This document shows positions 18,832 to 27,585 of a DNA stretch of 32,097 nucleotides, one piece after another. The notes beneath the pieces were generated by a model that was not told the DNA's origin, ran no database searches, and was given only the letters and a program-made list of their open reading frames with translations. The stretch comes from Verrucomicrobiota bacterium (lineage in GTDB: Bacteria > Verrucomicrobiota > Verrucomicrobiia > Verrucomicrobiales > Akkermansiaceae). A program made the position numbers and the translations under genes. Within the stretch, counting starts at the first letter, position 1, and every line of letters starts with the position of its first letter. Location: positions 1 through 32,097 of the forward strand of contig WBXD01000008.1 in the NCBI GenBank assembly GCA_008932935.1, written 5' to 3'.

Positions 18832-21669
18832 TCAGTCGCTGGCGGGCGGGCTGGGTTTTTTGGCGGAAGTTTTGGCGGGGGGCGGCGCGGTTTTGACGGT
18901 AGGTTTGGCCGCGGTTTTGACGCTGGCTTTTGCGGGAGCAGGAGCAGGAGCGGGAGCAGGAGCGGGCTCTACGGGAATGGCCTTGGGTGGGCAGCGCTTG
19001 GTAGCGAACGGCGCGGCCGAGTTGGGCGGGGGCAGGTCCTCGGCACCGTCGGCAAAGCGGCGGGTATCCGTGCTGGATTTGTAGCGGTGGTCCATATCAG
19101 CCTGGACGGCATCGAGGGTACCGCGCCCTGTGACGATGGATGGCTGGATAAAGATCAGCAGTTCGGCTTTCTCTGTAGTTTTGGTGGTAGAGGAGAAGAG
19201 TCGGCCGAGGTAGGGGATGCTGCTGAGGAGCGGGATGCCAGAGACATTATCTCTTTTTTTACTGCTGATCAAACCGCCGAGGACGATGGTTTCGTTGTTA
19301 GGAACGGTGACGGTGGTGAGGATTTCACGGGTGGTGATATTCGGTGGCTTCGGCGTTGAGCCAGGAACAATGGGTGAAGTATCCACCTGTGCTTCATCGT
19401 CGATGAGGGCGATTTGCAGGGTGATTTCTTTTTCGGAATTGATCAGTGGGATCACTTCGAGTTTGAGCACGACGTCCTGATATTGGTACTGGGTGCTGAC
19501 GGTGCCGTTAGCGCCTGGGGCACCGTAGGTGTTGTTGGCGGTGGGCACGGAGATGCGCTCGCCGGTTGAAATGGTGCCTTTTTGGTTGTTGGCCGTGAAG
19601 ATGCTGGGTCTGGCAAGCACGGTGAATTTATTGGTCGATTGTAGCGCCTGCAAAAAGACGTTGAGGCTGCTGCCGATCTTGCCATAGAGTTGTAGACCGC
19701 CAGTCGCGGCCAGCGAACCGGGAGAGAATGGCGTGGTAATGGCTGGCGTGTTGCCTGTCGCTGGCGTGATGATCGGGAGGATCGGCAGATTGGGGCCGCC
19801 ACCAGACCCGCCACGGGTCGCGAAATTGCCATCGCTGTAGAGATAGTCGACGCCGAGTGCTTTGCTGTCGCTGAGGGAGAGCTGACCGATGACGGTGGAG
19901 ATCATGACTTGATCGGCTTTGACATCGACCTGATCGAGGAGGCGTTCGATGATTTCGAGGCCAGAGGGAGGGCCTTGGACGACGATGGAGTTGGTGATAT
20001 TATCGGCGACGAGGAGGGTGCGGCCGACGAGGCGGGATTCCGGGGCGCTGGTGGCATTGGGATTGCTGAGGGAACCACCGCCGCCGCCAGATGCGCCGCC
20101 GCCGCCCGTGCCGCCGCCGGAACCACCGCCGAAGGACGAGTTGCCACCGCTGGTGGCGGAGGCGGTGCGACCGGTGTTGCCGATGGCGCCTGTGCTGCCG
20201 CTGCGACCGCCGGTATTGCCGGTGTTGGAGCCGGTGTTGGAGCCGCCGCGATTGCTGCCGCGACTGGCGCCGCCCGCGCCACCCGCGCCGCCGCTATCAC
20301 CGGTGCTGGTGAAGGCGCGGTTGAGGGCATCGGAGGCGATGGGCAGGAAGTCGGAGACGGTGAGGAATTTGAGTTTGCGGCGGAGGAAGGTTTTTTCGCT
20401 CGTTTCGATGTCGAACTCGCGGATGAGTCCTTCAACGAAAAGCAGATCGACCGGGCGGCCCATGGCGAAGATCCGGTTGGTGCGCGGTTCTGGAATGATT
20501 TGCACCGGCGTGTCGACGCTAGTGGCGGCGCCCGCACTCAGGGCGGCGGTTTTTTGGAGCGGGGCCCCAGGCACGACGGCGGCGACGGGAGCGGCGGGAG
20601 CCCCGGCGCGCTGGACGGCAGCGCTTTTTTGCGCTTGTTGTTGGGTATTGAGCAAATCGTTGAGGGTGCCAGCTAACTCGGTGACGTCGGCATATTTGAC
20701 GGAAATGAAGCGAGTGGCGGTGACATCGGCGGGTTTGTCGATTTCCTCCTTTAGTTTGATGAGCCTGCGGATGAGGGAGGTATTTTCGGTGATGACCACC
20801 GAGCCATTGAGGGGGGCGATGGACCCGTAAGTGCCGAAGGTGCCGATAATCTGGGTAAATGCTTGGGCAGCGGTCTCGGGCTTGATGTGCTTGAAGGTCA
20901 TTACGTAGGAAACGACGCCCTCGCCATCGGGCAAGGGGTCGTTTTCGTTCAGCACATCATAGCCGATGCCGGGCAACCTGGCGGCCACAGTCAGGAAATC
21001 CAGATTGGCGTCCTTATCATCGGGCATGAAGACGAAGTTTTCGATGCCGGCGGCTTTTTTGAGGAGTTCGGCGGCCTGGGCATACGTGAGGGGGTCCTCG
21101 GCGCTGGCATCCTGGACGAAGGCGAACTCGGCGGCGGCGGCGGCGGCGGAGACGATGACGCGGCGGCCGGTGTACTTGCGGTATAGAGCGGCCAACTCGG
21201 AACCCTTAAGCGACGCTTGTTCGATCGGCTCAATAATTTTGGTAGCGCCCAGCGGCACATTGGCATCGCGCACGGGTTTGCGGGACGGCACCAGCGGGCC
21301 TGCCGGTTCCGCAGGCTCAGCGCCAGCAGTCTTGGCCGGGCCACCGAGCGGGGTCTTGGCCGGGCCGCCGAGCGGGGTCTTGGCCGGGCCGCCGGGCGTA
21401 ATCCTGGCGGGGATCGCGGGAGAGGTTTTGACGGGAGGGGGCGTCACCGCAGCCGGAGCGGGAATGGCAGCCGGAGCGGGAACGGCAGCCGGAGCAGGAA
21501 CGGCAGCCGGAGCAGGAACGGCGGCTGGAGCGGGAATCGCGGCCGGTTCCGGGGTCGGGGCAGGCGCCTCTGGTGCTGGGAGCGGAGGGGTTCCGGGAGC
21601 GGTGGGGGCCTGAGCGGCGGCAAAGGTAAGGCTCAAAGCCAGGAGTGCAAAAAATCGGAGGACAGGCAT
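18832..21669 (-). CDS. gspD: Secretin (GspD/PilQ superfamily)
   Basis: A 945-residue outer-membrane channel protein of a type II secretion or type IV pilus-like machine. ATG 21669 gives a clear signal peptide (MPVLRFFALLALSLTFAAAQ). An Ala/Pro-rich segment with tandem repeats follows (to ~115). N-domains come next (140-430, with MTFKHIKPETAAQAFTQIIG, ITENTSLIRRLIKLKEEI and SVKYADVTELAGTLNDLL). A Gly/Ser/Asn-rich linker runs from about 458 to 533. A further N-domain (LVADNITNSIVVQGPPSGLE) precedes the secretin domain (590-850) with VTVPNNETIVLGGLISSKKR, GIPLLSSIPYLGRLF and ELLIFIQPSIV. The C-terminus is again Ala/Pro/Lys-rich. It is larger than classical GspD (about 650-700) because of the low-complexity parts. 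It is the last gene of the minus-strand cluster. Confidence 0.93.
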   Translation of the reverse strand: MPVLRFFALLALSLTFAAAQAPTAPGTPPLPAPEAPAPTPEPAAIPAPAAVPAPAAVPAPAAVPAPAAIPAPAAVTPPPVKTSPAIPARITPGGPAKTPLGGPAKTPLGGPAKTAGAEPAEPAGPLVPSRKPVRDANVPLGATKIIEPIEQASLKGSELAALYRKYTGRRVIVSAAAAAAEFAFVQDASAEDPLTYAQAAELLKKAAGIENFVFMPDDKDANLDFLTVAARLPGIGYDVLNENDPLPDGEGVVSYVMTFKHIKPETAAQAFTQIIGTFGTYGSIAPLNGSVVITENTSLIRRLIKLKEEIDKPADVTATRFISVKYADVTELAGTLNDLLNTQQQAQKSAAVQRAGAPAAPVAAVVPGAPLQKTAALSAGAATSVDTPVQIIPEPRTNRIFAMGRPVDLLFVEGLIREFDIETSEKTFLRRKLKFLTVSDFLPIASDALNRAFTSTGDSGGAGGAGGASRGSNRGGSNTGSNTGNTGGRSGSTGAIGNTGRTASATSGGNSSFGGGSGGGTGGGGASGGGGGSLSNPNATSAPESRLVGRTLLVADNITNSIVVQGPPSGLEIIERLLDQVDVKADQVMISTVIGQLSLSDSKALGVDYLYSDGNFATRGGSGGGPNLPILPIITPATGNTPAITTPFSPGSLAATGGLQLYGKIGSSLNVFLQALQSTNKFTVLARPSIFTANNQKGTISTGERISVPTANNTYGAPGANGTVSTQYQYQDVVLKLEVIPLINSEKEITLQIALIDDEAQVDTSPIVPGSTPKPPNITTREILTTVTVPNNETIVLGGLISSKKRDNVSGIPLLSSIPYLGRLFSSTTKTTEKAELLIFIQPSIVTGRGTLDAVQADMDHRYKSSTDTRRFADGAEDLPPPNSAAPFATKRCPPKAIPVEPAPAPAPAPAPAKASVKTAAKPTVKTAPPPAKTSAKKPSPPASD
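20071..20298 (-). repeat. Gly/Ser/Asn-rich coding tract inside the secretin
   Basis: About 75 codons encode a nearly uninterrupted Gly, Ser, Asn and Thr tract between two N-domains of the secretin. Short imperfect repeats (GSNTGSNTGNTGG, then GGGSGGGTGGGGASGGGGG) give the DNA a strong periodicity. Flexible linkers occur in secretins, but this one is long and unusual. It is likely to vary in length between strains. Confidence 0.7.
21329..21538 (-). repeat. Two tandem repeat arrays in the secretin N-terminal region
   Basis: At 21449-21538 an 18-bp unit (GCAGCCGGAGCAGGAACG and variants) is repeated five times and encodes hexapeptides such as VPAPAA. At 21329 to about 21396 a 24-bp unit (starting GTCTTGGCCGGGCC) is present in almost three copies and encodes the octapeptide GGPAKTPL. 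Both keep the reading frame. They form an extended Pro-rich spacer between signal peptide and N-domains. Confidence 0.8.
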
Positions 21670-21719
21670 GGGGGAGGAGGAATTTGGAGTGACGAAATGA
21701 AATTGGTTGCAGCGGGGGT

Positions 21720-21862
21720 TTTTAACCACGGATTACACGGATTGAAGAGGATTACACGGAAAAGATGACATCAGACAGGATTGTTCTGGATAACCCATTC
21801 CACTTTGCGCCCCTTTGCGTCCTTTGCGACTCTGCGGTAAATCTTCAAGTGAGTCGGGAGGG
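21720..21862. repeat. Interspersed repeats between GspC-like gene and secretin
   Basis: At 21721-21761 is TTAACCACGGATTACACGGA with a second TTACACGGA after AGAGGA. At 21801-21860 is a CCTTTGCG-periodic tract ending in CTGCGGTAAATCTTCAAGTG and AGTCGGGAGG. Its last 30 nt are identical to the element at 12371-12437. It abuts the stop codon of the upstream gene (TAA 21863-21865), so it is transcribed if the cluster is a single operon. Confidence 0.75.
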
Positions 21863-22477
21863 TTAGCGGCCGGAGGGGCGCTGGTAATTGCGGCCGCCGG
21901 AACGGCCGCCGGGTTGAGCGCCGGGTTGAGCGCCGGTGGTGGGAGGTGGGACGACGCGTGGCCGTGGCTGGAGCACAGCTGGGGCGGGGACTTGTGGAGC
22001 TGCAGGAGGGACCGCTTGGCCGGGCATCTGTGGTTGGCCCGGCATTTTGGGCGGGGCTTTGGCGACAGACGGCTTGGGCGCGCTGAGTTTTTCGTCGAAA
22101 GTGACGCTGCCGGTGATGGCCCCCTTGGACAGATAGACGACGGTGCCAAGCGGCTTGTCAGGGTTGCGCTCAATGCGCAATACTTGGTACTCGGAGGACT
22201 GGTCGGTATCGATGGGCGGCACCGCTTCGGCCGGGTTTTTCTTATTAATGAGGGTGATCAGATAGCCCCCGGCGATGGGAGCGATGCCTTTAAGCGCCCA
22301 ATCTGCAAAGGGGTTGACCACCGGGCCGTCTTCCACCGGCTTGGGCGGGGCGGTGAAGGGGGATTTGGTCCATAACTCGGTGTAGCGGGAGAGCGGGGCC
22401 TTCTTCGGCAGTTCCGCCGCCTGCAACCCAGTGAGGACGAGCAGCAGCAGCAGACCGGGACGGATGATGGAGTGCAT
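21863..22477 (-). CDS. GspC/PilP-like component of the secretion cluster (tentative)
   Basis: A 204-residue protein. ATG 22477 gives a signal peptide or membrane anchor (MHSIIRPGLLLLLVLTGLQA); the longer frame to 22636 has no support. The mature part opens with RYTELWTKSPFTAPPKPVED. It contains a small beta-rich region about 100 residues long (LKGIAPIAGGYLITLINKKN and TDQSSEYQVLRIERN) and ends in a Pro/Gly/Arg-rich tail. Position just before the secretin, an N-terminal anchor and a small beta domain are what one expects of GspC or PilP, the periplasmic connector to the secretin. The assignment is by context; direct sequence similarity is weak. In Akkermansia a gene of unknown function, Amuc_1099, lies between the secretin and Amuc_1100, as I recall, so the order appears conserved. 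Confidence 0.65.
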   Translation of the reverse strand: MHSIIRPGLLLLLVLTGLQAAELPKKAPLSRYTELWTKSPFTAPPKPVEDGPVVNPFADWALKGIAPIAGGYLITLINKKNPAEAVPPIDTDQSSEYQVLRIERNPDKPLGTVVYLSKGAITGSVTFDEKLSAPKPSVAKAPPKMPGQPQMPGQAVPPAAPQVPAPAVLQPRPRVVPPPTTGAQPGAQPGGRSGGRNYQRPSGR

Positions 22478-22500
22478 GGGAAAATCAGGCGGGTTCGAGG

Positions 22501-22575
22501 ATGCCAGAGGCCGGTACGACACCGCGGAAATTGCCGACGGCAATTTCCGCTCCGGTGGAAGCGCAGGTCTGGCAT
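22501..22575. repeat. Nested hairpin inside the secretion cluster
   Basis: GCGGAAATTGCC (22524-22535) and its exact reverse complement (22539-22550) form a 12-bp stem with a 3-nt GAC loop. Outer arms ATGCCAGA (22501-22508) and TCTGGCAT (22568-22575) enclose it. It occupies most of the gap between the PilO-like stop and the GspC-like start. It may stabilise or process the polycistronic mRNA, or attenuate read-through to the two outer-envelope genes. There is no T-run. Confidence 0.7.
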
Positions 22576-22587
22576 GGGTGAGGCATG

Positions 22588-23118
22588 TCACGCGGATGGC
22601 TCGGGTACGAACCATTGTTCGACCGTGGCGGTGCAATCGATAAGAGTGTCGTCATCTTTGTTAGGCGAGAGGCGGATGTAGGTCACGCAGCGGAGGTTGT
22701 CAGGCGAGTTGAGATGGTCGAACCAAGTGTACAGCGAGTGCTCGGGACCGACGACGGTGAGACTGACTTTGACGCGGTGGAAATAGTGGCCGGTTTGGTC
22801 GGTGGGAAGAAGTTTTTCGGTTTTGAAGGTGAGGCCGACGACGGGCACGTCCTTTTCAGCCAGCTCCAGCAAGGCGGTGAGAACCGGCTGGCTCTCGCTA
22901 GGTTTGGGCTCATGTTGGGCGAGCCATGCCATTTGGCTCTCGACCTCCTCGCGGCTGGCGTGGATGGCTTCGGCGTGTTTCAGGTCGGTTACGGCTTTGA
23001 AGTGCTTGCCGGCGATGTCGGCTTGCAGCTTGACGAAGTAGTTGAAACCTAACAAATTAAGGATAGCGAAGCCGCCGACGGCGAAGAAGATGAGGAGTTT
23101 TTTTTCACGAGGGGACAC
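22588..23118 (-). CDS. PilO/GspM-like inner-membrane protein
   Basis: A 176-residue protein with a short cytoplasmic N-terminus (MSPREKKLLIFF), one membrane helix at about residues 8-26, a charged probably coiled-coil stretch (AVTDLKHAEAIHASREEVES), and a C-terminal domain with alternating strands (VVGLTFKTEKLL, HRVKVSLTVVGPEHSLYTWF, DCTATVEQWF). This is the layout of PilO and GspM, the ferredoxin-like periplasmic proteins that pair with PilN or GspL. It follows the GspL-like gene after 96 nt. By position it corresponds to Akkermansia Amuc_1100, which is longer (about 317 residues). I cannot show sequence homology to that protein here. Confidence 0.72.
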   Translation of the reverse strand: MSPREKKLLIFFAVGGFAILNLLGFNYFVKLQADIAGKHFKAVTDLKHAEAIHASREEVESQMAWLAQHEPKPSESQPVLTALLELAEKDVPVVGLTFKTEKLLPTDQTGHYFHRVKVSLTVVGPEHSLYTWFDHLNSPDNLRCVTYIRLSPNKDDDTLIDCTATVEQWFVPEPSA

Positions 23119-23168
23119 AGGCAGGGGAAGGCAGGGGGGTGTGGAATGGCAAGGGAACTCGTCTAGTA

Positions 23169-23212
23169 ATGCCGCAGGTGGCGGGATTTGTCGGCGGGGA
23201 CCGACAAGGCAT
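23169..23212. repeat. Hairpin in the GspL-PilO gap
   Basis: TTGTCGG (23188-23194) and CCGACAA (23201-23207) form a perfect 7-bp stem with a 6-nt loop, inside outer arms ATGCC (23169-23173) and GGCAT (23208-23212). It lies directly after the GspL-like stop. The ATGCC/GGCAT outer arms are also seen in the hairpin at 22501-22575. Confidence 0.5.
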
Positions 23213-23214
23213 GG

Positions 23215-24447
23215 TTAATTTTTGGGTGGGGCGGCGGTGTAGACGAATTCCCAGCCGCGGATGCTTTTGGAGGCTTCGGGCGTTTGCCAAACGAGGCCGA
23301 CGAGGTCATTGCTCTTGCGCAGGGCGAGACTGAACTGACCGACGGCGGCCTGTTGCTGAGCCTCGCCGGTGAGGGAGATTTCGGTGGCGGTGACTTCGGC
23401 GGTTTTCAGGCGGAGGCTGCTGTTGGGGGGGATGCAGCGGGAAATGCGGTAGAGGATATCGACTGGGGCCTGGCTGAGATCGACGGCGTGGTGGAGTTCG
23501 TCCCACTTGGCGAGATGGGTGGTGAAGGCGATGGCATCCGGGGCCGCGGCCTTGGCATGCTTGCGCAGCAGGGCAGTGTCGGTGTGGGTTTTCCAAAGTT
23601 GGTAGCTGGAAAAGCCGATGAGGCCGAGATAGGCGAGGGCGACGGCGGCGATGGCGAGGATGACGTTGCGGCGGCGGCGTGCGCTGCGGCGGGCGGCGCG
23701 CACGTCGGCGGGCAGGAGTTTGCTGCGGGGGTCGGGGAGGACGGGGGCGGGGCGGGGCGAGACGTCCACCGGGACGTTGAAGGCTCCAGCCAAGGCACCG
23801 GGAGACGTCTGCTCGGCATGCGTCCAGAGCAGCACGCGGGAGGGCGTCAAGTCGATGTCTTGGAGCGACAACTGGATGATGGCGAGGCGAATTTCGCGGA
23901 CCAAGGAGTCATCGGGAGTGGCCGCCGAGGTGGAAGTGGCTTGGCAATAGACGGGTTTGCCCTGATGGGAGAGGCAAAACACCCAGCGGCCGAATTCCTT
24001 CCACACCGCCAGACAATCGCCGGGCATCGGGTAGGCGCGGGCCGAGATATCGAATTCCTTGGGTCCGCGCAGCGGCAAATCCCCATCGACGGGGGCCCGC
24101 AGGTGGACCGAGAGCAGGGCGGTGGTGTGGCCTTGGCGGGCGATGACGAAGGTGTCGGTGAGTTGGCCGGCCATCGGGTCTGGGCGCATGCCGAGGCCCT
24201 CGGCATGCATCACCGCGAGTTCTGGAAACAGCGAGTCGTCCTCACTGGTGACCTTCATCGGAATGGCGGTGATGGCCTTGACCGGGAAAAACATCAGGAT
24301 GTCGCCGCTGGGAACCCCGATTAACTCGCTGGCACGCGCGCTGGGCGAGGCGGTATGGAGGGTGAACTCCGCCTCGGCTTGGCTGGTCCAGATTTCCCAA
24401 CCGGTTGCGCCGGGGACGAGGAGGATTTGATCGGTGGGCTTGCTCAC
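23215..24447 (-). CDS. gspL: GspL/PilM-PilN-like assembly platform protein
   Basis: A 410-residue bitopic protein. A cytoplasmic part of about 260 residues is followed by a very basic stretch (RRSARRRR), one membrane helix at about 262-283 (VILAIAAVALAYLGLIGF), and a periplasmic domain of about 125 residues (ILYRISRCIPPNSSLRLKTA and ATEISLTGEAQQ). The periplasmic part resembles the PilN/GspL ferredoxin-like fold, and the cytoplasmic part is in the position of the actin-like PilM/GspL domain. Clear nucleotide-binding motifs are not visible, as is usual for GspL. The family links the assembly ATPase to the envelope complex. It starts with GTG 24447, which overlaps the gspK stop as GTGA, a sign of translational coupling. 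Amuc_1101 would be the positional counterpart in Akkermansia. Confidence 0.8.
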   Translation of the reverse strand: MSKPTDQILLVPGATGWEIWTSQAEAEFTLHTASPSARASELIGVPSGDILMFFPVKAITAIPMKVTSEDDSLFPELAVMHAEGLGMRPDPMAGQLTDTFVIARQGHTTALLSVHLRAPVDGDLPLRGPKEFDISARAYPMPGDCLAVWKEFGRWVFCLSHQGKPVYCQATSTSAATPDDSLVREIRLAIIQLSLQDIDLTPSRVLLWTHAEQTSPGALAGAFNVPVDVSPRPAPVLPDPRSKLLPADVRAARRSARRRRNVILAIAAVALAYLGLIGFSSYQLWKTHTDTALLRKHAKAAAPDAIAFTTHLAKWDELHHAVDLSQAPVDILYRISRCIPPNSSLRLKTAEVTATEISLTGEAQQQAAVGQFSLALRKSNDLVGLVWQTPEASKSIRGWEFVYTAAPPKN

Positions 24448-25382
24448 GGGATGATTTCTTCGAAGCGGTCGAGAAGCGCGGGTTGGCCGGTACGGTTGCG
24501 CACGACAACCGTGATGCGGCGCTTGGCCGAACCGGCGGTACCGGTGCTCTCGATGCGGGTGGTGGTATCGTTCACGGTGAAGCGCTGGGCTAAGTCAGGG
24601 CGACTATTGATGTCGACGCCCAAAAGAGCAAGCGCGTCCTTTGGAGAAGTGAAAAGGACGTCGTCCTCGGTATCGCGCACGCCGTCCTGGCCGCATACAG
24701 ACCTGGGGATGAGGGCTGCCAGTTCGACGGAGACATCGGCGGCGACGGCGATGAGTTCGGCGGGGGCATCGTTGAGGTCGAGGCTGCCGCTGCTCCAGAC
24801 GGTGAACCAGTTGCGCCAATCCGGGCGGACGGCTTCGACGAGCTCCATGCCGCGGACCAGGCGCATTTCATCAATGTTGTAAAATGGCCGGTTGAAGGGC
24901 TGGTTGATGCGACCCTGGCTTTCGTACCAATCTTTTTCGGCACCGTTGAGCGAAACGTTGTCATCGGCGTCGATCCAGTCGGCGAGGCAGGCGGTGATGG
25001 CTTGAGCGGTGTTGAGTTCGAGGCCCCAGGAGATGAACAGGTCGCGCAGCAGGGCGGTATCGTTGTGCAGGAGGATGGTATTGATGTTGAAGCGGCCGCC
25101 TTCGGAGAGGATTTTCACGTCATAGCCGCCGCCGGCGGCCTCATCGAAGTGGTGGAGGATGGGATCGGCGCGTTTGACGACGGGATTGGAGCCGACGGCG
25201 ATGCCGATTTCGGCGATATTGCGGGCGCGGGAGCCGTGGACTTTGGCGCTGGTGAGCTCCATATCGAAGGAGATGACGCGCAGAGCGACCATGGTGGCCA
25301 TGCCGAGCACCGCGATGAGCCACAGCACGGCGATCAAGGCGAAACCTTGAGAGCGCTGGGATTCTGGTGGGTGAAGGGACAT
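24444..25382 (-). CDS. gspK: Minor pseudopilin GspK
   Basis: A 312-residue large pseudopilin. The prepilin-type N-terminus is SQGFALIAVLWLIAVLGMAT, with cleavage expected after Gly13. Glu5 is replaced by a hydrophobic residue, as is typical of GspK. The globular part has the family blocks GGRFNINTILL, ITACLADWIDADDNVSLNGA, PFYNIDEMRLVRGM and LDLNDAPAELI, and a GxxDTEDDVL segment suggestive of Ca binding. GspK caps the pseudopilus tip together with GspI and GspJ. The start at ATG 25382 lies 5 nt after the gspJ stop. The end overlaps the gspL start. Confidence 0.9.
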   Translation of the reverse strand: MSLHPPESQRSQGFALIAVLWLIAVLGMATMVALRVISFDMELTSAKVHGSRARNIAEIGIAVGSNPVVKRADPILHHFDEAAGGGYDVKILSEGGRFNINTILLHNDTALLRDLFISWGLELNTAQAITACLADWIDADDNVSLNGAEKDWYESQGRINQPFNRPFYNIDEMRLVRGMELVEAVRPDWRNWFTVWSSGSLDLNDAPAELIAVAADVSVELAALIPRSVCGQDGVRDTEDDVLFTSPKDALALLGVDINSRPDLAQRFTVNDTTTRIESTGTAGSAKRRITVVVRNRTGQPALLDRFEEIIP

Positions 25383-25387
25383 CCTTA

Positions 25388-26173
25388 TTATTTTATGCTG
25401 CCGGCACCGGGGAGTTTGCCGGTCGGAAGGGTAATGGTGCCAGGCGTGGTGGTGCCAGGAGCGATGGGAGTGGGAGCGGGAGTGGCGCCCCCACCTTGCA
25501 TGATTTGGCGCAAGGCGACTTCGGGATTTTGCTTGGAGGGAATCCAGAAGATATGGCGCATTTCCTCGCCTTTGTCACCGAAGGCGAGGGTGAGTTCGAG
25601 TTGGAGCGGCAGGCGGCCCTGGATATCCCAATCGTATTGCCACTCCATGGAGGAGCCATCGAGCACGCGCCACTCGAAGAAGGCGACGTCCTTGACGAGT
25701 TCAACTTCGGCGAAGGGTTTGTTGTCGAGGTTGCTCTTGGCGCCATCGAGGGATGCGGAGCCCTCGAGGATTTCATTTTCGTAATAGCGCAGGACGATGG
25801 ACAAGAAGCCACTGCGGCGGCGCACGGTGGAGAGTTGGACGGCTTTGGCGATGCGCGGCTGACCACCCCAAGTGAAGCTGAGAGGGACGTTCTGGAGGGT
25901 GAGGTCGGAGAGGTATTGGCCGCTGGTTTTCTGCACCTGCAGATCGAAGCGGGCATTGCCCGGCAAGGCCGAGAAGCGCTTGCCCAGCAACTCGAAAAAC
26001 GCCTGATGCAGCATTTCCTCATTCTGCGATTTGACCAGCAGGTTGCCCAAACTCAGCGACGAGCGGGCAATCCCAAACACCATCCCAATGAGAATGGTAA
26101 ACAGCAGCATCGCCATCACGAGCTCCAGCAACGTGAAGCCTGCTCGCCGCGGATTGTTGGCCCGGTGCTTCAT
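25388..26173 (-). CDS. gspJ: Minor pseudopilin GspJ
   Basis: A 261-residue prepilin-like protein. I chose ATG 26173 (MKHRANNPRRAGFTLLELVM) because it gives a short basic leader and overlaps the gspI stop as ATGA. The leader cleavage site is Gly before FTLLE, with Glu5 present. The helix is followed by a beta-rich domain (FLSIVLRYYENEILEGSA, DVAFFEWRVLDGSSMEWQ) and a Pro/Gly/Thr-rich tail (TPIAPGTTTPGTITLPTG). Position and size fit GspJ, a tip component of the pseudopilus, although sequence alone would also allow another PulJ-type pilin. Confidence 0.82.
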   Translation of the reverse strand: MKHRANNPRRAGFTLLELVMAMLLFTILIGMVFGIARSSLSLGNLLVKSQNEEMLHQAFFELLGKRFSALPGNARFDLQVQKTSGQYLSDLTLQNVPLSFTWGGQPRIAKAVQLSTVRRRSGFLSIVLRYYENEILEGSASLDGAKSNLDNKPFAEVELVKDVAFFEWRVLDGSSMEWQYDWDIQGRLPLQLELTLAFGDKGEEMRHIFWIPSKQNPEVALRQIMQGGGATPAPTPIAPGTTTPGTITLPTGKLPGAGSIK

Positions 26174-26589
26174 GGCTGGTACATGCGGCCGTAGCGCCAG
26201 GTTTCTGCGGCGCGTTCTTTCCAAACGCCGGTTTCATACCAGCGGGCGCTCACGGTGATGAGGTACGTTTCCTGCAGTTTAACACCGTCTTTGTTTTCAA
26301 GATTATTGAGGAGGGTGATGGCGGTGGTCATCTCAATGCCGCTCTTACCGATCGGGTTGCTGGTGCGGCCTTCTTCGAGTTGGGGCAGCGACAGGGTCTC
26401 GTCCAGCGCACTATCGAGAATGCGGGTGATGCGCAGCTCGTTTTGGGCCAAGCCAGCGGCGGCAGCCATCCGGTGCATGGCGACGGCAAAGCCGGTGGCG
26501 GCAGCACTGAACACAGCCAGCGCCAGAATGACCTCGAGCAAGAGGAATCCGCGCTGGCCCTTGCGGCCGGAATGGAACGAAGACATCAT
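26170..26589 (-). CDS. gspI: Minor pseudopilin GspI
   Basis: A 139-residue prepilin-like protein. The start is ATG 26589 (a second ATG follows at 26586), overlapping the gspH stop. The leader ends in GQRG before FLLLEVILALAVFSAA, with Glu5 present. A small C-terminal domain (ITLLNNLENKDGVKLQETYL, SARWYETGVWKERAAETW) matches the size of GspI, which begins assembly of the pseudopilus tip complex. It is coupled to both neighbours by overlapping stop and start codons. Confidence 0.82.
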   Translation of the reverse strand: MMSSFHSGRKGQRGFLLLEVILALAVFSAAATGFAVAMHRMAAAAGLAQNELRITRILDSALDETLSLPQLEEGRTSNPIGKSGIEMTTAITLLNNLENKDGVKLQETYLITVSARWYETGVWKERAAETWRYGRMYQP

Positions 26590-27173
26590 CTGACTTCCAT
26601 GATGGTTTGGTCGAGGTCGATGGAGGCGGTGAGCGGGTGATAGGTATCTTCGATGTAATTGCGGCCGAGGTTGAGGCGCACGCTTATCGGTTCGCACAGG
26701 CCATCGGGATCGAAGCGCCAGACATGCACGGCGCGATCACTCATCGGCAACCAACCCTCGGTGTTCCAGCGGCGCACAAAACTCGCCATCTTCGGGTCGA
26801 GGCTCAATTGGGAATGCACCGGACTGGCGACTCCGGCGCTGGGCATGATCACCCGCTCGCCGCCAATGGTGTGGCCGCTGGCGGTTTTTTTCTCCTCTTG
26901 GCCGGACTCGGCGAAGGGCAAGAGTCGCACTACCCCCGGCCGGAACTCTAGGGCATAAGGGATTTGCTGGAGAATCGAGATCGTGCGGGCCCGCCTGGCC
27001 AACAATTCAACCTCCCCGGAGGCGTTGCGCAAGTCGCGCTCATCGGAGGAAAACACCATGACCGACACGGCACCACCGATCAACACGGAGGCAATTGCGA
27101 GAACCATGACGATCTCGATGAGCGTGAAGCCCCGGCCGAGTTTAGTAGAGGTCCTGGCTGCTAATGTCATCAT
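26586..27173 (-). CDS. gspH: Pseudopilin GspH
   Basis: A 195-residue prepilin-like protein. I chose ATG 27173 (MMTLAARTSTKLGRGFTLIE); the second ATG at 27170 is also possible. The cleavage site is Gly before FTLIEIVMVLAIASVLIGGA. The rest is beta-rich (ARTISILQQIPYALEFRPGV, DRAVHVWRFDPDGLCEPISV, YHPLTASIDLDQTIMEVR). The RTISILQQIPYALEF segment is reminiscent of GspH. The start overlaps the end of gspG by 32 nt. Confidence 0.82.
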   Translation of the reverse strand: MMTLAARTSTKLGRGFTLIEIVMVLAIASVLIGGAVSVMVFSSDERDLRNASGEVELLARRARTISILQQIPYALEFRPGVVRLLPFAESGQEEKKTASGHTIGGERVIMPSAGVASPVHSQLSLDPKMASFVRRWNTEGWLPMSDRAVHVWRFDPDGLCEPISVRLNLGRNYIEDTYHPLTASIDLDQTIMEVR

Positions 27174-27585
27174 CTGTTCCTTCCTGGCCGTCTTTGCCTC
27201 GGCTGATGATTTCAAAGTCGGTCACGTTTTTCTTGCCCGGAAAGCGGTACTGGTACTCGCTGCCCCACGGGTCAAGCGGCACTTTGTCGGCGACTTTGCT
27301 CCACATGCGCGGTATCGGTGCGGAGTTAGGCTTCTCCACCAGCGAGCGCAGTCCTTGTTGGGTGGTGGGGTATTGTCCACCGTTGAGTTTGTACATCTCC
27401 AACACGCTGCGCAAGGTCGCACAGTCGTTTTTGACTTGGGTGAGTTTGGCGGAATCGCCGATGCCACGCATGGCGAAGATGGCCCCGCCGAGGATCATCG
27501 CGATGATGCCGAGGACGATGACCATTTCAAGCAGGGTGAAACCGGAGTTACGGCGGGCTTTGCGGGATGGAGGAGGCAGTTGCAT
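27142..27585 (-). CDS. gspG: Major pseudopilin GspG
   Basis: A 147-residue major pseudopilin. ATG 27585 gives the leader MQLPPPSRKARRNSG before FTLLEMVIVLGIIAMILGGA. The globular part has the classic GspG text: LRSVLEMYKLNGGQYPTTQQ, GLRSLVEKP, PLDPWGSEYQYRFPG and the calcium-site ending DFEIISRGKDGQEGTDDDI. This strong match makes a type II secretion-like machine the best reading, ahead of a type IVa pilus. It is the first gene of the minus-strand cluster, so the cluster promoter should lie in 27586-27940. Confidence 0.94.
   Translation of the reverse strand: MQLPPPSRKARRNSGFTLLEMVIVLGIIAMILGGAIFAMRGIGDSAKLTQVKNDCATLRSVLEMYKLNGGQYPTTQQGLRSLVEKPNSAPIPRMWSKVADKVPLDPWGSEYQYRFPGKKNVTDFEIISRGKDGQEGTDDDISSQDLY

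Follow-up and report, generated by a model that had tools for sequence, protein, structure and literature searches.

Akkermansia encodes Amuc_1100 in a cluster that also contains a secretin, and an operon with a similar order of parts in another genome of the Akkermansiaceae raises the question of whether the two are counterparts or different machines. The operon lies in a window of 32,097 nucleotides (the whole stretch of DNA analysed; contig C8 of a 2.24 Mb genome that is 71% complete). An earlier note had pointed to a row of genes for a secretin, a 204-residue protein, a PilO-like protein and a GspL-like protein, and this row is indeed present on the minus strand (Table 1). The order that the note gave for Akkermansia is likewise correct, as in genome G063 genes 1102-1101-1100-1099 and then the secretin gene follow each other on one strand. 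The "full pseudopilin set" that it had described is there in the form of GspG, H, I, J and K at 24444-27585, but the H, I and J matches are weak and lie below their equivalog cut-offs. Altogether, the operon occupies 18832-27585 on the minus strand and is transcribed in the order GspG-H-I-J-K-L-M, 204-residue protein, secretin; it very probably represents the core of a type II secretion system (T2SS), with inner-membrane, pseudopilin and outer-membrane parts. The true start of the GspH-like protein is probably internal to its open frame, and the secretin starts at 21729 or at an internal ATG at 21669, the coordinate used in the earlier note. A proline-alanine repeat near the N-terminus and a glycine-rich stretch in the middle of the protein were also seen in the secretin.

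Table 1. Genes of the window operon, in the order of transcription.
Feature	Coordinates	Strand	Evidence
GspG major pseudopilin	27142..27585	-	TIGR01710 121 bits (cut-off 88.85); Pfam T2SSG
GspH-like minor pseudopilin	26586..27215	-	TIGR01708 34.8 bits (below cut-off 80); prepilin N-methylation motif over cut-off
GspI-like minor pseudopilin	26170..26595	-	TIGR01707 E 6e-6, below cut-off
GspJ-like minor pseudopilin	25388..26224	-	Pfam N_methyl over cut-off; TIGR01711 E 0.0018, below cut-off
GspK minor pseudopilin	24444..25382	-	Pfam T2SSK_1st 53.8 bits (cut-off 26.2)
GspL, 410 aa	23215..24447	-	Cytoplasmic N-terminal part, membrane segment and PilN-like periplasmic domain
GspM/PilO-like subunit, 176 aa	22588..23118	-	Membrane segment, coiled coil and two alpha-beta-beta units
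204-residue exported protein, proposed GspC/PilP-like link	21863..22477	-	Position between GspM and GspD; conservation; weak fold matches
Secretin, GspD type, 965 aa	18832..21729	-	TIGR02517 (GspD) best model, 283.6 bits (cut-off 351.35); Pfam Secretin and Secretin_N over cut-off

The least recognizable member of the operon is the 204-residue protein, for which a comparison with family models gave no match. The six best structural matches of its confident core (residues ~56-132) were all to PilP or GspC (Z 3.9-5.2; GspC 3oss at Z 4.6, PilP at up to Z 5.2), although such Z values can also reflect a common arrangement; they agree with the position of the protein between GspM and GspD. In a crude motif test on 64 relatives, 43 had a signal-peptidase-like A-X-A motif downstream of the hydrophobic stretch, and one had a lipobox. 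The description of the protein as anchored is therefore doubtful, and judging from these motifs cleavage after export is more likely. No recognizable anchored GspC was found in the window operon, a point against the T2SS reading. A profile comparison with Amuc_1099 lent no support to homology of the two proteins, as its score of 18.7 was reached by two of 150 column shuffles.

The composition and order of the operon are widely maintained in the family. GspM follows GspL in all 56 family loci of a set that combined 30 loci from a GspL search with 26 picked among more divergent loci, and the 204-residue family is present in 55 of them. A set of 72 loci from named genomes has GspL in 72, GspM in 68 and the 204-residue protein in 65. 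All nine genes appear in the order of the window in 44 of these 72 loci, most of the others ending at a contig edge, and the order is under selection. A swapped neighbor (K/J or L/K) was listed in four of the 72 loci, which we read as an artefact of ordering overlapping open frames by their starts.

We consider it very probable that the window carries the structural operon of an Akkermansiaceae T2SS, which is a distant relative of a separately encoded, pilus-type Amuc_1098-1102 system, and its function would accordingly be secretion. In such a machine, GspG together with H-K would form a periplasmic pseudopilus, while GspL and GspM would build the assembly platform at the inner membrane, through which a cytoplasmic ATPase drives growth of the pseudopilus. 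Between this platform and the secretin ring, the 204-residue exported protein would probably act as a bridge, in the manner of PilP or the homology region of GspC, and the secretin would provide the exit through the outer membrane. The ATPase and GspF (contig C150) as well as a prepilin peptidase (contig C83) would be supplied from outside the operon. C150 bears a gspE gene, cut by the contig start, paired with gspF; C83 encodes PilC and a prepilin peptidase, and C16 two PilT proteins. Given the 71% completeness of the genome, that the gspE-gspF pair of C150 serves the window operon is a guess. A third secretin machine is encoded on contig C36 (L004 1-12358), with its own PilB/GspE-like ATPase, GspF and a weak GspM, in addition to a prepilin-like protein and a PilT-like ATPase.

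Like known T2SS gsp operons, the window operon encodes GspG, GspK, H/I/J-like pseudopilins, a protein of the GspM fold, a GspL with a PilN-like periplasmic domain and a secretin in a conserved order. Unlike those operons, it has no linked gspE-gspF pair and a short exported protein in the place of GspC, and its L, M and 204-residue proteins have diverged so far that their families are not recognized from single sequences. There are also likenesses to the PilMNOPQ proteins of the type IV pili of Myxococcus and Pseudomonas: the 176-residue protein has PilO as its closest structural match, the C-terminus of GspL is matched by PilN, and the list of weak matches for the 204-residue protein is headed by PilP. 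The window differs from PilMNOPQ in that a single protein combines the PilM and PilN parts, its cytoplasmic portion being PilM-like by position only, and in that the operon runs on into the pseudopilin set. Parts of T2SSs and type IV pili may be interchangeable enough to make gene content indecisive, and the operon could instead build a pseudopilus-like or pilus-like fiber for adhesion or DNA uptake. The scores of the secretin and of GspH, I and J, which fall short of the T2SS equivalog cut-offs and speak against the T2SS reading, would fit such a fiber, as would the appearance of PilP besides GspC among the best matches of the 204-residue protein and the closeness of PilO to the window GspM. 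However, GspG and GspK exceed their T2SS cut-offs, and a separate PilT-PilT pair, PilC and the Amuc locus are available for a pilus. We thus regard a fiber as improbable and retain the T2SS as the reading of the operon.

The 176-residue protein is the one for which a relationship to Amuc_1100 had been proposed. Its AlphaFold2 model (mean pLDDT 92.1) shows a long helix, comprising the membrane segment and a coiled coil, that is followed by a helix-strand-strand-helix-strand-strand succession. In VIA-align, PilO of Pseudomonas came first (Z 12.8, 97 residues, 2.3 Å), and a Myxococcus PilO model (Z 12.1) and another PilO (Z 10.8) also scored above Amuc_1100 (Z 9.9, 105 residues, 3.7 Å); PulM (Z 9.3), periplasmic XcpY (Z 8.7) and EpsM (Z 8.0) preceded the first unrelated entry, a ferredoxin-like fold at Z 7.5. 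Foldseek likewise returned PilO (E 1.8e-6) and Amuc_1100 (E 1.6e-3), so that the structural similarity anticipated in the earlier note was indeed found. The GspM family profile matched PilO in 3jc8 (E 6e-6), and Pfam T2SSM was matched in 33 of 54 relatives of the 176-residue protein. These comparisons show that the 176-residue protein, PilO, GspM and Amuc_1100 share one fold.

Whether this fold has been inherited from a common ancestor is less readily read from the sequences. A profile alignment of GspM and Amuc_1100 covers 44-45 columns of a strand-helix-strand core, with a score that was reached by none of 150 column shuffles. A tool profile comparison of the two gave a probability of 6.5% (P 0.0057) and, with another alignment, of 28-41% (P 6e-4 to 3e-4). 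Searched against the PDB, the Amuc_1100 profile found Amuc_1100 chains and two chance entries (E 0.5), with no PilO or GspM. In the 13 family genomes of genus g3, which we identify as Akkermansia because one member has an Amuc_1100 that aligns with the solved protein along its length at 542 bits, the GspM profile had six matches up to E 10 and none in eight of the genomes. Two of the six lie inside Amuc_1100, two (E 0.08-0.19) in 628-638-residue frames adjoining Amuc_1100, which we take for Amuc_1101, one elsewhere in G084 and one in G113. The likeness of the 176-residue protein and Amuc_1100 could have arisen by convergence on a ferredoxin-like fold, given the weak tool comparison, the outcome of the PDB search and the Z values of up to 7.5 for unrelated ferredoxin-like folds. 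We nevertheless think this unlikely, as the two proteins agree in their entire topology (membrane segment, coiled coil, two alpha-beta-beta units) and in operon position, the profile score withstood all column shuffles, and of the six weak matches in Akkermansia, four are located in Amuc_1100 or Amuc_1101. Common descent of the 176-residue protein and Amuc_1100 is likely, though not proven.

For the neighboring pair, GspL and Amuc_1101, the evidence is more uneven. The GspL family profile matched Myxococcus PilN in 3jc8 (E 5e-6), and Pfam PilN was found in 23 of 38 relatives of the window GspL. Among the 15 Akkermansia genomes of a phylum sample, the GspL profile gave one match each in three (E 6.5e-4 to 9.3e-4) and none in the other 12; the matched gene is that of Amuc_1101, by its coordinates in G063 and, in the other two, as inferred from adjacency. 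A profile comparison of GspL with Amuc_1101 yielded a score of 39.7, reached by none of 150 shuffles, over the membrane segment and the adjoining stretch. The N-terminal domains scored 20.7 compared to a best shuffle of 20.2 (0 of 60), which is marginal, and the score of the periplasmic parts was reached by one of 60 shuffles and lends no support. The suggested link between the two proteins thus stands as a weak profile relationship that lies mostly in the membrane segment. A PilN-like domain was searched for in the C-terminus of Amuc_1101 and not found; Amuc_1101 may show some similarity to the PilN start motif. Amuc_1101 contains a strong PilM domain, while GspL has none at the sequence level. 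The L/M and 1101/1100 pairs may well go back to a single common origin. The further idea that Amuc_1100 derives from the PilO/GspM subunit of a secretion system was not borne out, since Amuc_1101 has the PilM domain of a type IV pilus; with this domain and the description of the cluster as a type IV pilus, descent of Amuc_1100 from an ordinary PilO is simpler.

The genome of the window contains a complete Amuc_1098-1102 locus of its own on contig C70. All five genes are in the Akkermansia order and exceed the curated NCBIfam cut-offs (Amuc_1102, 230 bits, cut-off 55; Amuc_1101, 858 bits, cut-off 650; Amuc_1100, 291 bits, cut-off 180; Amuc_1099, 371 bits, cut-off 50; Amuc_1098, NF042912, 1021 bits, cut-off 750), and a search with the C70 Amuc_1100 found the solved Akkermansia protein at E 4e-15. 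Between its two domain matches, the C70 Amuc_1100 (L005 3668-4828) also has a long insert of proline-alanine-lysine repeats. Of 31 Amuc loci (C70 and 30 others), all contain 1101 and 1100, and 29 also contain 1099 and the beginning of 1098; the other two are short stretches. The family models of Amuc_1099, Amuc_1100 and Amuc_1101 found no match up to E 1 in the three window proteins. With Amuc_1098_fam, the window secretin scores 54.5 bits (46 in a search of the genome), short of the cut-off of 750, whereas its score with the G036 secretin of the T2SS is 811 bits; for the Amuc_1098 of an Akkermansia, the scores are 710 bits with the C70 secretin and 26-27 bits with that of the window. On these scores, the window and Amuc_1098 secretins are placed in different clades. 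The Amuc_1098-1102 cluster of Akkermansia resembles the window in the order secretin, small protein, PilO-like and PilM/L-like protein and in the fold of the PilO-like member, but lacks pseudopilins and has a secretin of another clade and an Amuc_1101 with a full PilM domain.

Most of the sampled family genomes contain both loci. The window GspL was matched in 93 of 117 family genomes and the Amuc_1100 family in 110 (94 over its cut-off); 86 genomes have both, 24 Amuc_1100 only, seven GspL only and none neither. Contamination of draft genomes does not explain this coexistence, because five single-contig genomes (G036, G082, G098, G019 and G048) have both loci, ~3.1 Mb apart in G036 and ~17 kb in G098. 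In the latter case (contig C1, ~1287093-1306366), further secretin genes lie between the T2SS GspL and the Amuc_1100 gene. The C70 locus, the coexistence in relatives and the secretin scores rule out orthology of the window operon with Amuc_1098-1101, and the neighbors of the two loci do differ, the outcome that the earlier note had named as speaking against its proposal. Despite the same four-part order, the match of the GspM fold to Amuc_1100 and the position of the Amuc_1101 gene as the sole match of the GspL profile in three Akkermansia genomes, we give next to no credence to a true orthologue from which Amuc_1100 would emerge as a derived secretion-system subunit, with a genuine five-gene locus coexisting in the same genome and in single-contig relatives, the wide gap between the secretin scores and no Amuc_1099/1100/1101 family match in the window. 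The window operon and Amuc_1098-1102 are distant relatives, not counterparts, and the Amuc locus is a separate pilus-type system in the genome of the window.

Akkermansia itself has one of the two loci. A single-protein search detected the window GspL in none of its 13 family genomes, while Amuc_1100 is present in all 13, in some below its cut-off. Exactly two GspF/PilC domains, in one protein, were found in all 13, compared to at least four in 91 of the 93 GspL-bearing genomes; outside Akkermansia this count fails to separate the groups, because 11 other genomes without a GspL match show two to six. Each of the 13 genomes has two secretins. The second of these was considered as a T2SS secretin and rejected, because in G063 it is a paralogue of Amuc_1098 and has no GspL, GspM or pseudopilin gene next to it. 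This second Amuc_1098-type secretin, with TPR repeats, occurs in G063 (L187 6157-10365) and G036 (L188 5939-9960) and is followed in both by a 509-547-residue protein without a Pfam match. As 14 of the 16 family genera sampled have the window GspL, loss of the T2SS in Akkermansia is the simpler reading.

PilO and GspM are located at the inner membrane. A 2017 paper (PMC5332112) gives an account of the Amuc_1098-1102 cluster and locates Amuc_1100 outside the cell, and in a 2023 review (PMC10688800) the cluster is treated as one for a type IV pilus, 1098 being its PilQ. A 2026 review (PMC13119276, citing a 2020 paper) likens the Amuc_1100 structure, with two alpha-beta-beta motifs, to type IV pilus and T2SS proteins, so that the core of the idea in the earlier note is already in print. 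In the literature searched, nothing beyond PMC13119276 was found on Amuc_1100 in relation to PilO, PilN or T2SSs, or on an Akkermansiaceae T2SS. To the extent of this search, it is new that the two loci coexist and that Akkermansia lacks this T2SS.

Two paralogous machines that could plausibly be confused can now be told apart, and Amuc_1100, a probiotic, host-signalling protein, is put in the PilO/GspM structural family via a sister system in the same cells. Its published location outside the cell conflicts with the inner-membrane location of PilO and GspM, a conflict that is directly testable. We tentatively propose, at somewhat less than even chances, that Amuc_1100 is a PilO-type subunit of a pilus alignment complex held in the inner membrane by its N-terminal helix, that its reported surface location and its TLR2 signalling would be due to protein that has been released rather than to a pilus component, and that Akkermansia lost the T2SS of its family and kept only the pilus machine. 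The absence of this T2SS from Akkermansia bears on how this gut genus exports its mucin-degrading enzymes.
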